A DNA stretch of 47,881 bases. Origin: Gilliamella sp. Lep-s35 (GTDB lineage Bacteria > Pseudomonadota > Gammaproteobacteria > Enterobacterales > Orbaceae). How positions within the stretch are numbered: position 1 is the first letter of the stretch; every line of letters starts with the position of its first letter. This document shows, one piece after another, positions 28,505-35,744 of the stretch. The DNA lies in the NCBI RefSeq assembly GCF_009795845.1, contig NZ_WTEX01000018.1, positions 1 to 47,881 of the forward strand, read 5' to 3'. The translations under genes and the position numbers were made by a program. The notes beneath the pieces are model-generated. The model made no database searches, was not told the origin of the DNA, and saw nothing but the letters and a program-made list of their open reading frames with translations.

Positions 28505-29668
28505 ATGATAAACAAGCACTACCAATTAGAAAAAGTTGTTATATTAAGCCGTCATGGTATTCGTACACCGTTACAAAATACACTTGAATTTCTTGAACAA
28601 GTAACACCATTTGAATGGCCTAAATGGCAACATTCCTATGGTTATTTAACAACGCGAGGAGGTGCTTTAGAAGTCTATTTTGGACACTATTTATCGCAAT
28701 GGCTTGAAACCCATAACATAAAACCTTCAGTAACTGCTCCAAAAATATTTGTTTATGCTAATAGCCTACAAAGAACTGTCGCAACCGCACAATTTATTAT
28801 CGCTGGTGCTTATGCTGGTTATGATATTGCAATTAACCATAAATACCCAATCGAAAAGATGGATCCTATTTTTGATCCAAGCCTACGGGATGATTCACCA
28901 GAATTAAAACAAGCGGTATTACATGACATTGAACAAACCAATCAAGCTGAGTCCATTTTTAAAAATTTAGCGCCCGCTTATGAAGTTTTATCTGATATTT
29001 TAGATTATCGACATTCAACATTATATGCCAAACACCAATGTCCATTAGCTGATATTCCGCTTAAGCTTCATCTGGAAAAAAATGAAGAGCCAGCATTACT
29101 TGGCGCACTAGCGATAGGCGCATCAGCGGTTGATGCCTTTGTATTACAATATTATTCAGCTTTTCCTAAAGAACATATTGCATGGGGAAGAATAAATGAC
29201 TTAGCCCAGTGGCAACAAATCGTTCAGCTTCGTAATCAATATATTAATTTAATATGCCACACTAAAACACTGGCAAAACATTCTGCTACGCCCATCATCA
29301 ATACTATAGACAATCTTATGCAACAAGATAATACAGTAAACTTACTTGTAGGGCACGATAGTACAATTGCATCATTGCTAGGGGCATTAGAGTTTGAAAC
29401 TTATCAACTACCAAAGCAATTTGAAAGCACACCAATAGGTGGAAAAGTCGCTTTACAACGTTTTAGACACTTATCTACTGGAGAATACTTTTTTAAAGCT
29501 GAATATATTTATCAAAGCTTTGAACAACTCCATAACGGACAAGTACTGAACGCGGATAATCCACCACAGCATTATCAACTACAACTGAAAAATGCAGCGA
29601 TTAATAATGAGGGTTATTATAGTTGGTCAGATTTTGAGGAACGAATAAAATCTTTCAAAATTAACTAA
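28505..29668 (+). CDS. Histidine-type phosphatase, Agp-like, without signal peptide
   Basis: 387 residues. The histidine phosphatase motif SRHGIRTP starts near 15 and the C-terminal VGHDSTIASLLGAL near 282. It follows E. coli Agp (periplasmic glucose-1-phosphatase) closely: LEVYFGHYLSQWL, YANSLQRTVATAQF, DAFVLQYYSAFP and TPIGGKVALQRF. Unlike Agp it starts directly at MINKHYQLEKVVIL, with no signal sequence. The frame upstream meets a TAG at 28472 with no alternative start that would add one. It has only two cysteines (in HQCPL and LICHT), whereas exported relatives have several for disulphides. So it is probably cytoplasmic. The RHGIRTP form is nearer to phytase/AppA than the RHNLRAP of E. 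coli Agp. Substrate is unknown; a sugar phosphate is plausible given the gal operon that follows. Confidence 0.8.
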   Translation: MINKHYQLEKVVILSRHGIRTPLQNTLEFLEQVTPFEWPKWQHSYGYLTTRGGALEVYFGHYLSQWLETHNIKPSVTAPKIFVYANSLQRTVATAQFIIAGAYAGYDIAINHKYPIEKMDPIFDPSLRDDSPELKQAVLHDIEQTNQAESIFKNLAPAYEVLSDILDYRHSTLYAKHQCPLADIPLKLHLEKNEEPALLGALAIGASAVDAFVLQYYSAFPKEHIAWGRINDLAQWQQIVQLRNQYINLICHTKTLAKHSATPIINTIDNLMQQDNTVNLLVGHDSTIASLLGALEFETYQLPKQFESTPIGGKVALQRFRHLSTGEYFFKAEYIYQSFEQLHNGQVLNADNPPQHYQLQLKNAAINNEGYYSWSDFEERIKSFKIN

Positions 29669-29750
29669 TTATCGTTAAATTATTCAATGTCGCCTAAAAT
29701 TGAATAAGCTAATAACGATAAACAAACAAAGATTATAATAACAAAAATTT

Positions 29751-29966
29751 TGTTAAAAACTTTCAGGAAAGGTATCCGTTTCAGTATAAAACAAACACGA
29801 AATGTAATCGATTTTAAGAAAGATTGCGTTTTATTGGCTAAAATCTATTCTAATTAATTAACCTAAATCTTCTTTTTAAGTAAACCACTCATAAATCATG
29901 ATGGTTATTATCATAAAAAGATTAAGATTATACATAAACACATACCTTTCCTGAAAGTTTTTGACA
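29751..29966. mobile_element. MITE-like element, 216 bp, with 25-bp terminal inverted repeats
   Basis: The left end (29751-29775) and the inverse of the right end (29942-29966) match at 24 of 25 bases. Each starts TGTYAAAAACTTTCAGG from outside. The inside has no coding capacity. Related ends occur at 5318-5358, 18435-18452 and 35882-35917, so this is a family. The ends resemble those beside transposase relics A and B, suggesting a non-autonomous derivative of that element. I see no clear target duplication. It lies directly upstream of the lacY control region, and its right end finishes in TTGACA, a consensus -35. Confidence 0.7.
29802..29817. promoter_or_regulatory. GalR-like operator O1 (inside the MITE)
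   Basis: ATGTAATCGATTTTAA fits the GalR/GalS consensus GTGNAANCGNTTNCAC at 9 of 12 fixed positions. Its centre is 184 bases upstream of O2. It lies inside the mobile element, so it may be chance or a recruited auxiliary site. Confidence 0.35.
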
Positions 29967-29985
29967 GAATCAATTATAACACTTA

Positions 29986-30001
29986 ATGTAAACGATTTCA
30001 T
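29986..30001. promoter_or_regulatory. GalR-like operator O2 (external, about -61.5)
   Basis: ATGTAAACGATTTCAT matches the GalR/GalS consensus at 10 of 12 fixed positions. Its centre is 20 bases from the centre of the CRP site and 99 bases from O3. This is the position of OE in the E. coli gal operon (-60.5). Confidence 0.65.
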
Positions 30002-30002
30002 A

Positions 30003-30024
30003 AAGTGTTATCTAGATCACTTTT
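30003..30024. promoter_or_regulatory. CRP (cAMP receptor protein) site
   Basis: Agrees with the ideal 22-bp CRP palindrome at 19 positions: core TGTTA-TCTAGA-TCACT against TGTGA-N6-TCACA. Its centre (30013.5) is 41.5 bases from the start predicted by the -10 at 30043, the class II position. Confidence 0.75.
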
Positions 30025-30042
30025 TACAACCTTCTTTAATGT

Positions 30043-30048
30043 TATTAT
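30043..30048 (+). promoter_or_regulatory. -10 box of the lacY-galETKM promoter
   Basis: TATTAT (5 of 6 to TATAAT), with a start expected near 30055. There is no good -35, which is usual for a promoter where CRP at -41.5 replaces it. The leader to the lacY ATG would be about 90 bases and contains operator O3. Confidence 0.6.
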
Positions 30049-30084
30049 CGCTTTTAACAAATAACTTTCCTATTCTTAAAAAGA

Positions 30085-30100
30085 ATGTAATCGATTTCTA
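30085..30100. promoter_or_regulatory. GalR-like operator O3 (internal, about +38)
   Basis: ATGTAATCGATTTCTA matches the GalR/GalS consensus at 9 of 12 fixed positions. It is downstream of the predicted start, as OI (+53.5) is in E. coli gal. With O2 it could form a repression loop of 99 bases. Confidence 0.55.
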
Positions 30101-30144: not shown

Positions 30145-31419
30145 ATGAATCAAAAAATAAAATTATCACTAAGTAATAAGAATTATTGGGTATTTAGTAT
30201 CTACTTCTTTCTTTACTTTTTTATTATGGGCGCATATTTCCCATTTTTTCCTGTTTGGTTAAAAATGAATGGTCTAGATGAAGCAAATACTGGATACGTT
30301 TTTTCATTTATTTCATTATTTGCGCTTTTTTTTCAACCTTTGTTTGGATTGATTTCTGACAAATTAGGATTAAAAAAACATCTTCTTTGGATTATCACTC
30401 TACTTCTTGTATTATTTGGACCATTTTTTATATTCGTTTTAGGACCTTTACTTCAATTTAATGTCACTTTAGGCGCCATTGCTGGTGGGCTTTATCTTGG
30501 TATGGTGTTTAGTGGTGGAGCGCCTGCTATTGAAGCTCTAGTTGAAAAAATAAGTCGACGCAGTGGATTTGAGTTTGGACGTAGTCGTATGTTTGGTTGT
30601 TTTGGTTGGGCAATTTGTGCTTCATTTGTTGGAATTATGATTTCTAAAAATGTCAATGCTGTTTATTGGTTATGCTCTGGATTTGCATTGATTCTTCTAT
30701 TTCTAGTCAAAATTGCCGATCCTGCCAAAACGTCAACGACCGAAGTTGTTGAGCAAATGGGATTAAACAAACCTGAACCATTTAATCTAAAACTTGCTAT
30801 TAATTTACTTAAAATGCGTAAAACTTGGTTTTTTATGCTTTACATAATTGGGGTTGCTTGTACTTATGATGTATTTGATCAACAGTTTGCTAACTTTTTT
30901 ACTTCATTTTTTTCTAGTGAGCAAGTGGGTCGAGAAGCATTTGGCTATGTCACAACACTTGGCGAATTCTTAAATGCAACAGTAATGTTTTTTGCACCAC
31001 TGATTGTCATGAAAATAGGCAGTAAAAATACCCTACTCATTGCTGGTACGATTATGTCTATTCGTATCACAGGCTCAGCATTTGCTAGCTCTGCAGTCGA
31101 AGTTGTTATATTAAAAACATTACATATGTTTGAAGCGCCTTTACTACTTGTTGGTGCATTTAAATATATTACCACACACTTCCCTATTCGTTTATCTGCA
31201 ACTGTTTACTTAATTGCATTTTGTTTTGCAAAACAACTATCGATTATGTTTATGTCCATATTTGCCGGCCTAATGTATGTTAAAATAGGTTTTGAAGGAG
31301 CATATTTAGTCCTTGGTTTTATCGCATTTAGTTTTACTCTAATTTCTTCCTTCACATTATCAGGGCGTGGACCATGGGATCTGTGGAAACATAAAAGCAG
31401 TGAAAGGTCTGAAGATTAG
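30145..31419 (+). CDS. lacY: Lactose/galactoside:H+ symporter LacY
   Basis: Major facilitator superfamily permease of the oligosaccharide:H+ symporter family, 424 residues (E. coli 417), 12 helices. [16 protein letters not shown] is nearly the E. coli N-terminus. All the residues known to matter in LacY are kept: the sugar-site Glu in ALVEK and Arg in GRSRMFG (126 and 144 in E. coli), Glu in GEFLNA (269), Arg in MSIRITGSA (302), and His and Glu in KTLHMFEAP (322 and 325). It is the first gene of lacY-galETKM, 45 bases before galE, with AAGGAAG before the ATG. No lacZ or lacI is present. Sugar choice (lactose, melibiose or other galactosides) cannot be settled here. Confidence 0.92.
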
Positions 31420-31464: not shown

Positions 31465-32481
31465 ATGAAAATATTAGTAACTGGTGGTTGTGGGTATATA
31501 GGTAGTCACACATGTGTTCAATTAATTCAATCTGGTTATACGCCAATTGTGCTTGATAATTTATTCAACAGCAAGGCTTCGGTATTAGATAGAATACAAA
31601 CAATCACAGGAAAAAAAGTCGATTTTTATCAAGGTGATGTTTGTGACGCACAATTATTAGCAAAAATATTTGCTGAACATAGCATTAGTGCAGTTATTCA
31701 CTTTGCGGGCCTTAAAGCAGTCGGCGAATCAGTACACAAACCACTTGAATATTATGAAAATAATGTTTACGGCAGTATTGTACTAATGAAGGCAATGCGT
31801 AATGCTGGAGTTAAACAGTTAGTATTTAGTTCATCAGCAACGGTTTATGGTGAGCTTGCGCCAGTTCCTTATGTGGAAACTTTACCACAAGGCTTACCCA
31901 CTAGCCCGTATGGTAAAAGTAAGTTAATGGTTGAACAATGTATTATGGACTTAGCCGTTGCTGAACCTGATTGGTCATTAACTTTACTTCGTTATTTTAA
32001 TCCTGTTGGCGCTCACCCAAGTGGTTTAATGGGTGAAGATCCACTAGGTATTCCTAATAACCTTATGCCATATATCACTCAAGTTGCTGTTGGCAAACGT
32101 GAATCATTAGCCGTTTTTGGTAATGACTACCCAACAACGGATGGTACTTGTGTGCGTGATTTTATCCATGTTGTTGATTTGGCTGATGGACATATTGCAG
32201 CACTCAAAGCCGATCATAACCAACATGGGGTACATATTTACAATTTAGGCTCAGGTGTTGGTTATAGCGTATTACAAGTTATCACCGCTTTTGAAAAAGC
32301 ATCAGGAAAACCACTCAATTGGCATTTTGCGCCAAGGCGTGAAGGGGATTTACCCGCTTTTTGGGCTGATGCAAAAAAAGCGGAACAAAAATTGGGGTGG
32401 AAAACCAAACTCACGCTTGATGATATGGTAAAAGATTCATGGAATTGGCAATCAAATAACCCTCAAGGTTATCCTGATTAA
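31465..32481 (+). CDS. galE: UDP-glucose 4-epimerase GalE
   Basis: NAD-dependent enzyme that interconverts UDP-galactose and UDP-glucose, 338 residues as in E. coli. The Rossmann motif GGCGYIGSH is at 8-16, the catalytic Tyr/Lys pair lies in SPYGKSKLMVE near 149-153 with Ser in FSSSATVYG, and NLGSGVGYSVL is near 260. It is the second gene of the operon, ahead of galT by 45 bases. It lets galactose carbon enter glycolysis and also supplies UDP-galactose for surface sugars. Confidence 0.97.
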   Translation: MKILVTGGCGYIGSHTCVQLIQSGYTPIVLDNLFNSKASVLDRIQTITGKKVDFYQGDVCDAQLLAKIFAEHSISAVIHFAGLKAVGESVHKPLEYYENNVYGSIVLMKAMRNAGVKQLVFSSSATVYGELAPVPYVETLPQGLPTSPYGKSKLMVEQCIMDLAVAEPDWSLTLLRYFNPVGAHPSGLMGEDPLGIPNNLMPYITQVAVGKRESLAVFGNDYPTTDGTCVRDFIHVVDLADGHIAALKADHNQHGVHIYNLGSGVGYSVLQVITAFEKASGKPLNWHFAPRREGDLPAFWADAKKAEQKLGWKTKLTLDDMVKDSWNWQSNNPQGYPD

Positions 32482-32526: not shown

Positions 32527-33576
32527 ATGGCTAATTTTGACCCTGTTGATCATCCTCATCGACGTTATAACCCACTAACAGGCCAATGGGTATTAGTTTC
32601 ACCACATCGAGCTAAACGACCTTGGCAAGGCCAACAAGAAACGTTAAACGAAGAACAAAAACCAAGTTACGATGCAAACTGTTTTTTGTGTCCAAGTAAT
32701 CAACGTGTAACAGGTGATATCAATCCCAATTACACGGGAACGTTTGTTTTTACCAATGATTTTGCTGCATTAATAGAAGATACGCCTGAATCACCACAAA
32801 GTACAGATCCACTATTTCAAATGCAAAGTGCAAAAGGAACGAGCCGAGTTATCTGTTTTTCACCTGATCACAGTAAAACGTTGCCAGAACTTGATTTAGC
32901 CGCTATTGAAGGAGTTATTAAAACTTGGATCGAGCAACTGCAAGAACTTAGTCAACGTTATCCTTGGGTACAAATATTTGAAAACAAAGGATCAGCAATG
33001 GGATGCTCTAACCCCCATCCACATGGACAAGTTTGGGCTAATAGCTTTTTACCGAATGAAATTGCGCGTGAAGATCTAAATATGCGTAATTACTTTGAAA
33101 AATACCATCGCAATTTATTGGTTGATTATGCTGAAAAGGAACTTATTAATCGTGAGCGAATCGTTGTAGAAACTAAGTATTGGCTTGCCGTTGTTCCTTT
33201 TTGGGCAATATGGCCATTTGAAACCTTATTATTACCAAAAATTCACATTCCACAATTAACCCAATTAAATGACGAACAACAAAGTGATTTAGCTATTGCG
33301 CTCAAAAAATTAACGAGTCGCTACGATAATTTATTTCATTGCTCTTTCCCATACTCTATGGGCTGGCATGGTGCGCCATTTATGCAAGATAAAAATGATT
33401 ATTGGCAAGTACATGCACATTTTTATCCCCCTTTATTACGTTCCGCCACAGTAAAAAAATTTATGGTAGGTTACGAAATGTTAGCCGAAGTACAAAGAGA
33501 TTTAACCCCAGAGCAAGCAGCTGAAAGATTACGTAACGTTAGTGATGTGCATTATAAAGACAAAAAGGATAAATAG
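32527..33576 (+). CDS. galT: Galactose-1-phosphate uridylyltransferase GalT
   Basis: Transfers UMP from UDP-glucose to galactose-1-phosphate. 349 residues (E. coli 348). The catalytic NPHPHGQVW (nucleophile is the second His, about 166) is present, as are the zinc cysteines in CFLCPSN and the N-terminal [33 protein letters not shown] is the C-terminal metal-site region. AGAGGT precedes the ATG. The stop is directly followed by the galK ATG, with no gap, so translation is coupled. Confidence 0.97.
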
Positions 33577-34734
33577 ATGAACGCATTAATCAGAGCAACG
33601 ACACAAGCATTTGAATCTAAATTTGATTATAAACCCGATACACTTATACAAGCCCCCGGTCGTGTAAACTTGATTGGCGAGCATACCGATTATAATGATG
33701 GTTTTGTTTTACCTTGTGCTATCGATTATCAAACGATAATAAGTTGTCACAAACGTTCAGATAATCTTGTTCGAGTTATTGCGGTTGATTATGATAATCA
33801 ACAAGATGAATTTTCGTTAGACTTACCTATTGAAAAACACGCCAAATATCAATGGGCAAACTATGTGCGTGGCGTAGTAAAACACCTAAAAAAATATGCT
33901 AATAATATTTGCGGCGTTGATTTGGCAATCAGTGGTAATGTGCCTCAAGGTGCAGGATTAAGCTCATCAGCATCACTTGAAGTTGCTGTAGCAAAGATGT
34001 TTCAGGTTTTATATAATTTACCATTAGATGGCACTAAATTAGCATTGATCGGTCAAGAAGCCGAAAACCAATTTGTTGGTTGCAATTGCGGTATTATGGA
34101 TCAACTGATCTCCGCCCTTGGGCAAGCTCAACATGCATTGCTAATCGACTGCCGATCATTAGAAGTTAAACCTGTTTCAATTCCTACAGATTTTGCAGTT
34201 GTGATTATTAACTCTAATATCAAACGCGGATTAGTTGATAGCGAATATAATACCCGACGCAAGCAATGCGAGGCAGCAGCTAAGGCGCTCGGCGTAAAAG
34301 CACTACGTGATGCATCGTTAGATGATTTAAAACATATTGAAAGTACGCTCGATCCAATTGCTTATAAACGTGCTCGCCATGTGATAACTGAAAACGAACG
34401 GACTATAAAAGCAGCTCAAGCTTTAGCTAATGGTGACTACAAATTGTTATCAAATCTAATGGCTCAAAGCCACAACTCTATGCGCGATGATTTCGAAATT
34501 ACTGTACCTGCTATTGATTACCTTGTTGAAATTATCCACAATGTTATTGGTGAACAAGGTGGCGTACGTATGACTGGTGGTGGCTTTGGTGGTTGTGTGG
34601 TCGCTTTAGTGCCAAAAGCTAAAGTTGACGATGTTAAAACGATAGTTAACCACAATTATGTAAAAAAGTTTGGTATTAAAGAAGACTTCTATATCTGCCA
34701 CCCAAGTGAAGGAGCTAACGTGATATGCCTATAA
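33577..34734 (+). CDS. galK: Galactokinase GalK
   Basis: GHMP kinase that phosphorylates alpha-D-galactose with ATP. 385 residues (E. coli 382). [20 protein letters not shown] is the galactokinase signature near 28-47. [15 protein letters not shown] is the ATP loop, and [13 protein letters not shown] is the C-terminal GHMP motif. It begins at the base after the galT stop (AAGGA inside galT serves as ribosome site) and overlaps galM by ten bases. Confidence 0.97.
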
Positions 34735-35744
34735 AACAGATAATCACACTTTCAAACAAGCACGGTATGCAAATTAAACTATCGAACTGGGGAGCCACGT
34801 GGCTCTCTTGTATATTGCCTGTCGATGAACAAAACCGTGAAGTATTACTGGGTTGCCAAACTTTCGAACAATATGAAAAGCAAGATGCTTATTTAGGTGC
34901 TACAATTGGCCGATACGCTAACCGTATTGCCAACGCGACAATTGATATTGACAATAGACACTACCCACTTGTGGCTAATCAAGGTGTAAACCAGTTACAT
35001 GGAGGCAAGTTAGGTTTTGATAAACAACTATGGCACATTCAATCTCAATCTGATCAACAAATCACATTTACTTTAACATCACCTGATGGTGATCAAGGTT
35101 TCCCTGGTGAACTTAATGTTGAAGTTACCTATCAATTGACTGATGACAATAAAGTCGTTATCAAATTTAAAGCAACAACTACCAAAACAACACCTGTTAA
35201 CTTAACCAATCATGCTTACTTTAATCTAGATGGAGAAACTAGCAAAGATATTCTTAACCACACCTTGCAAGTTAATGCTAACTTATACTTACCTGTTGAT
35301 AGTAATGGCATACCAAGTAATGATTTAGTTTGTGTCACCAAAAACGATATGGATTTACGTAAACCAAGGCTAATATCTGATAGATTATTAGCAAGTCTTG
35401 ATCGACAAATTACAGGCGGTTACGATCATGCTTATTTATTGGATAAAAATCAAGCTATAGCCGCTAAGCTTGTTTCATCTGATAAAAAAGTGACAATGAA
35501 TATCACAACGACCAAACCATCTTTACAAGTATATACAGGGAATTTTTTACAACATACACCAAATCGCCATAACGGCGAATATGATAACTTTGCAGGGATC
35601 GCGTTAGAAACGCAGTTTTTACCTGATAGCCCTCATCATCCTAAATGGCCACAAGAAAGTTGTTGGTTGCAACCAAATCAGATTTATAGCCATCAAACAA
35701 CTTATCAATTTACCTGTAGAAATTCCTCACATTGTTTACCGTAA
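34725..35744 (+). CDS. galM: Aldose 1-epimerase (galactose mutarotase) GalM
   Basis: Converts beta-D-galactose, released inside the cell, to the alpha form used by GalK. 339 residues. [24 protein letters not shown], the catalytic-His segment [13 protein letters not shown] (about 163-176) and the Glu in [13 protein letters not shown] are all present. It starts inside the end of galK (ten-base overlap). It is the last gene of the operon. A 12-base stem-loop covers its stop codon. Confidence 0.95.

Follow-up and report, generated by a model that had tools for sequence, protein, structure and literature searches.

The lacY-galE-galT-galK-galM operon of Gilliamella sp. Lep-s35 is likely to be driven by a galP1-type promoter that CRP activates and GalR represses, and we hold the model to be likely as a whole, with its upstream auxiliary operator and its regulon. 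The part read from the sequence with confidence is contact repression from one operator, O2, combined with activation by CRP. Without galactose, a GalR dimer would sit on O2, which adjoins the CRP site upstream of the extended -10 promoter, and would block RNA polymerase by contact, while a second dimer on an auxiliary operator would strengthen this repression. The likelier partner of O2 would be O1, 184 bp upstream, in a loop that leaves the promoter outside (compare E. coli galP, 182 bp); the leader operator O3 would serve as a back-up or roadblock. Intracellular galactose, derived from lactose by LacZ or from melibiose-type sugars by Aga, would release GalR, galactose being taken as the inducer by analogy with E. 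coli GalR, and low glucose, acting through cAMP-CRP, would turn the promoter on. The same GalR would control lacZ, by way of the same operator plus CRP module, and aga, by way of a pair of operators some 190 bp from each other, replacing LacI as the lactose repressor.

The window, i.e. the whole stretch of DNA analysed (47,881 bp), is contig C16 of a genome of 2.47 Mb. The control region and the operon comprise the following features, with negative and positive positions counted from the predicted start:

29803..29816, + strand: O1, putative upstream auxiliary GalR operator TGTAATCGATTTTA, 1 mismatch, centre at about -245.5
29987..30000, + strand: O2, putative main GalR operator TGTAAACGATTTCA, perfect to TGTAANCGNTTNCA, centre 29993.5, about -61.5
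30003..30024, + strand: CRP-like site AAGTGTTATCTAGATCACTTTT, 19/22 to the palindrome, centre 30013.5, -41.5 (class II position)
30040..30048, + strand: extended -10 TGTTATTAT, TGT at 30040-30042 (TG at 30040-30041) followed by TATTAT at 30043-30048
30055 (or the purine at 30056), + strand: predicted transcription start, inferred from the position of the -10
30086..30099, + strand: O3, putative leader GalR operator TGTAATCGATTTCT, 1 mismatch, centre 30092.5, about +38
30145..31419, + strand: lacY, galactoside/H+ symporter (curated models; residue comparison with E. coli LacY)
31465..32481, + strand: galE, UDP-glucose 4-epimerase (curated model)
32527..33576, + strand: galT (curated model)
33577..34734, + strand: galK (curated model)
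34725..35744, + strand: galM (curated model)

The gaps between the five genes are 45, 45, 0 and -10 bases, and a search for terminator-like sites in them found none. The permease and galETKM form one tight gene string, in agreement with a preliminary description of this DNA that had suggested possible joint control of galactoside uptake and the Leloir genes. LacY shares 260/416 aligned residues with E. coli LacY, including 16/16 residues checked, and is 99% identical to LacY of Gilliamella sp. Choc5-1; among the matches listed, the named LacY loci closest to it are from Gilliamella. The gene upstream of the control region (28505-29668) resembles glucose-1-phosphatase/phytase genes (PRK10173, 401.7 bits against a cut-off of 425); the match of its product begins at profile position 26, so that the stretch expected to hold a signal peptide is absent.

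Counted against the GalR box consensus TGTAANCGNTTNCA, three sites with at most one mismatch are found in the 450 bp before lacY, a number reached by 0/2000 dinucleotide shuffles, and an independent repeat search grouped O1, O2 and O3 as one direct-repeat family with spacings of 184 bp (O1-O2) and 99 bp (O2-O3). Together, the 24 lacY control regions available from the genus, this one among them, contain 60 sites with at most one mismatch, against a shuffle mean of 0.27. Boxes with at most two mismatches are not enriched over the whole window (20 found, 20.6 by chance), and the genome-wide count of 870 lies below that of a reversed-pattern control (1162); the operator signal rests on clustering and conservation, not on box frequency. 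The two operators described earlier, centred at 29993.5 and 30092.5 and 99 bp apart, are both present with 0 and 1 mismatch, respectively, while their number has to be raised from two, since O1 at 29803-29816 is a third. O1 is flanked by two copies, inverted relative to each other, of a dispersed TTTTGTYAAAAACTTTCAGGAAAGCTATGCGTTTNAGTATAAAA-like element about 43-46 bp long (29747-29789 and 29928-29970). Matches to the control region number 58 in the genome, counting the region itself, and almost all of them run through this element. A promoter-like site pointing upstream is also seen at 30001-29973 on the minus strand (ATGAAA-17-TATAAT with TG), and its first hexamer overlaps O2.

The CRP-like site, described earlier as 19/22 and centred at 30013.5, is confirmed as the only match with at most three mismatches in the window, and 0/100 shuffles contain one. 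The TATTAT at 30043-30048 likewise stands, and the TG that precedes it, absent from the preliminary description, makes it an extended -10.

Related genomes share this layout. A lacY at no less than 81% identity is present in 24/35 genomes of the genus, own included (those of G009 and G032 each have one stop codon within the last few residues), and the conservation check proposed earlier could be run on the 24 regions. O2 is perfect in 24/24, the CRP site begins 16 bp after the start of O2 in 22 regions and 15 bp in 2, and its score is 17-20 of 22 in all 24. The motif TGnTAnnAT lies at exactly 37 bp from the start of the CRP site in 24/24. The auxiliary operators are more variable: O1 has at most one mismatch in 21/24 regions and is absent in G020, G024 and G026, and O3 has at most one mismatch in 14/24, at most two in 18/24 and three or more in 6/24. 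No region among the 24 is without both O1 and O3, a result that chance would often give. The composite of operator and CRP site is present in all 24 genomes of the genus with lacY and in 0/11 of those without a lacY match of at least 81%.

The preliminary description likened this layout to that of the E. coli gal operon, and the likeness holds for the half formed by operator, CRP site and extended -10. O2 is the counterpart of OE; the distance from operator start to CRP start is 15 bp in E. coli and 16 bp here (15-16 in the genus), that from CRP start to the TG of the extended -10 is 37 bp in both, and both have a class II CRP position and an operator downstream of the start. The likeness fails for the operator count and probably for the downstream loop. 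The first gene is galE in E. coli and lacY in Gilliamella, which adds O1 184 bp upstream of O2, and the second E. coli operator, OI, lies within galE at 113 bp, whereas O3 belongs to the leader, 99 bp from O2. In E. coli an overlapping P2 promoter is found five bases upstream; here there is no P2-type -10, as the hexamer at that position lacks the first-base T in 24/24 regions. The CRP site of E. coli gal scores 14/22 on the scale that gives the near-consensus site here 19/22.

Gilliamella is not alone in having three operators in such a region, because three of 15 galE regions elsewhere have a third operator. In G257, G300 and G121, OE, CRP site, extended -10 and internal operator are joined by a further operator upstream at 109, 99 and 156 bp, respectively; unlike the Gilliamella regions, these precede galE and have OI at 111-113 bp. 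In G383 the region precedes galT; an operator is found 88 bp upstream, but the OI window contains none. The O1-O2 pair also resembles that of E. coli galP, where two GalR operators lie 182 bp apart before a sugar transporter gene (PMC5110547, Table 1). With E. coli lac, the permease and beta-galactosidase families are shared. In lac, auxiliary operators flank the main operator on either side, as they do around O2; unlike in lac, no LacI above the cut-off is found here, and lacY and lacZ lie on different contigs with GalR boxes.

If GalR loops the DNA at this promoter, O1 and O2 are the better candidate pair than O2 and O3, because their spacings share a phase near 10.5-10.7 bp. The spacing is 129 bp in one of the 21 regions and 173-206 bp in the other 20, with a phase R of 0.61 at 10.5 bp over the 21 spacings and a best period of 10.7 in a scan of 6-16 bp (17 cluster values). 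Under a tree-aware null, P was 0-0.03 with frequent indel events and 0.10-0.23 at the lowest event rate tried; the regions are related and P depends on the rate and size of the indels, and these tests are only suggestive. If the helical repeat of E. coli is used (113 bp/11 turns), the absolute phase is at chance level, with 12/21 spacings within a quarter turn of a whole number. The GalR repressosome loop requires HU and supercoiling. In E. coli, GalR loops remain functional up to about 19 turns (PMC4693257). The same report gives E230, D258 and R325 as residues of E. coli GalR that cannot be mutated without loss of looping; among the orthologues, E230 is replaced by S, T, Y or R and R325 by K in 27/27, and D258 is kept in 25/27. 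Because the regions are related, the tree-null P spans 0-0.23, the absolute phase is at chance and two of the three interface residues have changed, we place looping between O1 and O2 just short of probable.

The foremost alternative is that no loop forms, O2 repressing by contact, O3 acting as a roadblock and O1 either raising the local amount of GalR or serving an upstream promoter. Some relatives have no O1 or only a weak one, and the same holds for O3; O3 sits in the leader, where RNA polymerase has to pass; and the O2-O3 spacings carry no phase signal, all of which would suit it. The shared phase of the otherwise varied O1-O2 spacings speaks against it, as do the report that OI does not block elongation in E. 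coli (PMC4693257) and the 21 regions with O1, in which we saw by eye no conserved promoter-like sequence around that operator. We regard the absence of looping as a real possibility that we are inclined to doubt.

The model of the preliminary description, in which GalR on O2 and O3 closes a promoter-enclosing, gal-type loop of 99 bp, is unlikely. In E. coli gal, repression peaks at operator spacings of 103, 113, 123 and 133 bp and is relieved at 108, 118 and 128 bp, the native OE-OI spacing being 113 bp and not 114 bp as given earlier (PMC4693257). A spacing of 99 bp is therefore near anti-phase, as the series of 108, 118 and 128 extended by one turn gives 98. Across the genus the O2-O3 spacing drifts over 93-101 bp; 17/18 values are within 3 bp of the out-of-phase 98, although 5/18 likewise come within 2 bp of either 93 or 103. 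O3 is degraded to three or more mismatches in a quarter of the regions (6/24), no P2-type promoter that would need the loop is present, and the changes at two of the three loop-interface residues of GalR count against this loop as well. In its favour, both sites exist, E. coli gal forms such a loop at 113 bp (PMC4693257), and off-series spacings recur, with three of the four upstream operators of Enterobacteriaceae-type gal regions located 88, 99 and 109 bp from OE. O3 is also old, since it has at most two mismatches in 18/24 regions and is present, at 90 bp, in another genus of Orbaceae (G038).

The search for a GalR or GalS homologue proposed earlier found a close GalR homologue in the genome, and CRP is there too, above its model cut-off. 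The homologue reaches 548.5 bits for NCBIfam GalR, 8.5 short of the cut-off of 557, and 429.9 for GalS, so that the GalR model is the best by far; 222/335 aligned residues are identical to E. coli GalR. Positions 13, 15-18, 21, 22 and 56, which we take to be the DNA contacts, are identical in 27/27 orthologues. Orthologues of galR (at least 77%) occur in 23/24 genomes with lacY, the one without, G033, being 74% complete, and in 5/11 genomes without lacY, where the copy of G021 has two in-frame stops. The gene lies on another contig, after aga (GH36 alpha-galactosidase) and before a porin gene and lacZ. None of the six LacI-family proteins of the genome reaches 340 bits for LacI (PRK09526), the highest value listed being 178.3. 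It is very improbable that another of these six binds the boxes instead of GalR, even though half-site sequences are shared within the LacI family, since three of the other five pass the IdnR, GntR and Cra cut-offs and the last two are weak matches only, since galR sits between the box-bearing aga and lacZ, and since galR orthologues accompany lacY (23/24 against 5/11).

The porin gene between galR and lacZ (L101:8047-9765, minus strand) is of the LamB type; its LamB domain covers the product only from residue 155 of 572, after a long N-terminal extension, and upstream of the gene, at L101:9951, there is a TGTGA-N6-TCACA site. G016 and G021 each have a perfect GalR box about 270 bp before this porin gene. 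A second LacY-like transporter of the genome, L010 (G000:C103:41097-44234), is 34% identical to LacY and divergent from a LacI-family regulator gene.

Lactose, melibiose-type sugars and the Leloir genes probably all fall under a single GalR regulon, because the operator plus CRP module recurs before lacZ, a pair of GalR boxes surrounds the aga start, and the genome has a close GalR homologue but no LacI above the cut-off. The lacZ gene, on a different contig from lacY and likewise preceded by a GalR box, has an operator with at most one mismatch followed by a CRP site at 15-16 bp in 20/21 regions (the exception is G026), and 19 of these 20 have TATAAT at 39 bp from the start of the CRP site. 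In 44 Orbaceae genomes the composite has 41 matches (reversed control 0), 25 of which were assigned to lacY and 16 to lacZ by comparison with the fetched genes. For aga, one box lies 112-117 bp before the start and a second one within the gene, the two being separated by 187-192 bp in 23/24 fetched regions with aga; in G026 the outer box is 419 bp from the inner one. The conservation of the inner box is weaker evidence, because it lies within coding sequence and coding could explain it. Genome-wide there are 51 distinct places with at most one mismatch, 38 inside open frames (the inner aga box among them) and 13 outside by the ORF rule that we used. Five of the latter are O1, O2, O3 and the upstream boxes of aga and lacZ, and the other eight have no evident galactoside gene adjoining. 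Membership of the regulon, which is assigned by motif, suggests a network in which GalR appears to stand in for LacI as the lactose repressor.

The pattern of operator, CRP half and extended -10 was found in 34/394 Enterobacterales genomes, at one place in each (reversed control 0). In 18/33 Orbaceae genomes sampled it marks Gilliamella lacY promoters; the remaining 16 genomes belong to one other family, probably Enterobacteriaceae, where it precedes galE in 15 and galT in 1; 15 of the 16 have an internal operator, at 111-113 bp. Because the full pattern is confined to Orbaceae and this one family among the 394 genomes, shared descent and convergence with E. coli gal cannot be told apart.

Within Orbaceae, the promoter probably belonged to lacY from the outset, the Leloir genes being placed under it later. 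This reading comes from one genome outside the genus, G038, where lacY alone carries the promoter: its lacY is 75% identical, has O2, the CRP site, TGATATTAT and the leader operator, adjoins lacZ and galR, and has no gal genes in the fetched 10.5 kb. The galETKM genes of G038 occupy a different place, where 13 kb contain a single box and no CRP site scoring above 15/22. Since O1 was not seen in G038 (within the fetched stretch) or in G026, it was apparently gained within Gilliamella. The loci fetched from six of the 11 genomes without a lacY match of at least 81% (G003, G007, G015, G016, G018 and G021) have no box with at most one mismatch; galE is kept in all six, and five of them (all except G016) hold lacY remnants. 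In these five (L103-L107, from G021, G003, G007, G018 and G015, respectively) lacY is in fragments, in some together with galT, galK and galM, which suggests repeated decay of galactoside use in the genus.

Outside the genus we compared 63 lacY-family loci from other genera (L187-L249; best 80 of 107). Aeromonas locus L192 is the only one of the 63 in which the 700 bp before the lacY match contain a box with at most one mismatch, and none of the others has a perfect box at any point of the stretch fetched. In L192 (Aeromonas media) lacY is paired with lacZ; a perfect GalR-type box precedes the lacY match by 161 bp, and a CRP-like site is found a further 46 bp upstream of that box, a CRP geometry that differs from that of Gilliamella. 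GalR-type control of lactose genes may hence have arisen elsewhere too.

A broader history can be put forward tentatively, and we would not yet call it probable: in Orbaceae all galactoside genes (those for LacY, LacZ and alpha-galactosidase, whose own repressors were lost or never existed) may have come under GalR, and in Gilliamella the lacY promoter may have captured the Leloir genes and gained a far operator, O1, in helical phase with O2, while the older leader operator O3 decays. If true, lacY and lacZ would be tied to GalR by a shared operator plus CRP module, and the genus would show, in natural intermediates, how a repression loop moves from downstream to upstream. Among the titles and abstract openings of the open-licence literature matches listed, none describes GalR-run lactose genes in Gilliamella or Orbaceae.

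The gal and lac operons of E. coli are textbook switches known mainly from one species, and the bee-gut symbiont Gilliamella provides a close natural relative in which a gal-type promoter would run the lactose permease. Operator number and spacing vary over 24 genomes, which makes a ready comparative test of selection on loop phase. Gilliamella species are reported to use melibiose, raffinose and galactose (PMC11822680), and the finding bears on how they may handle the galactosides of the bee diet.
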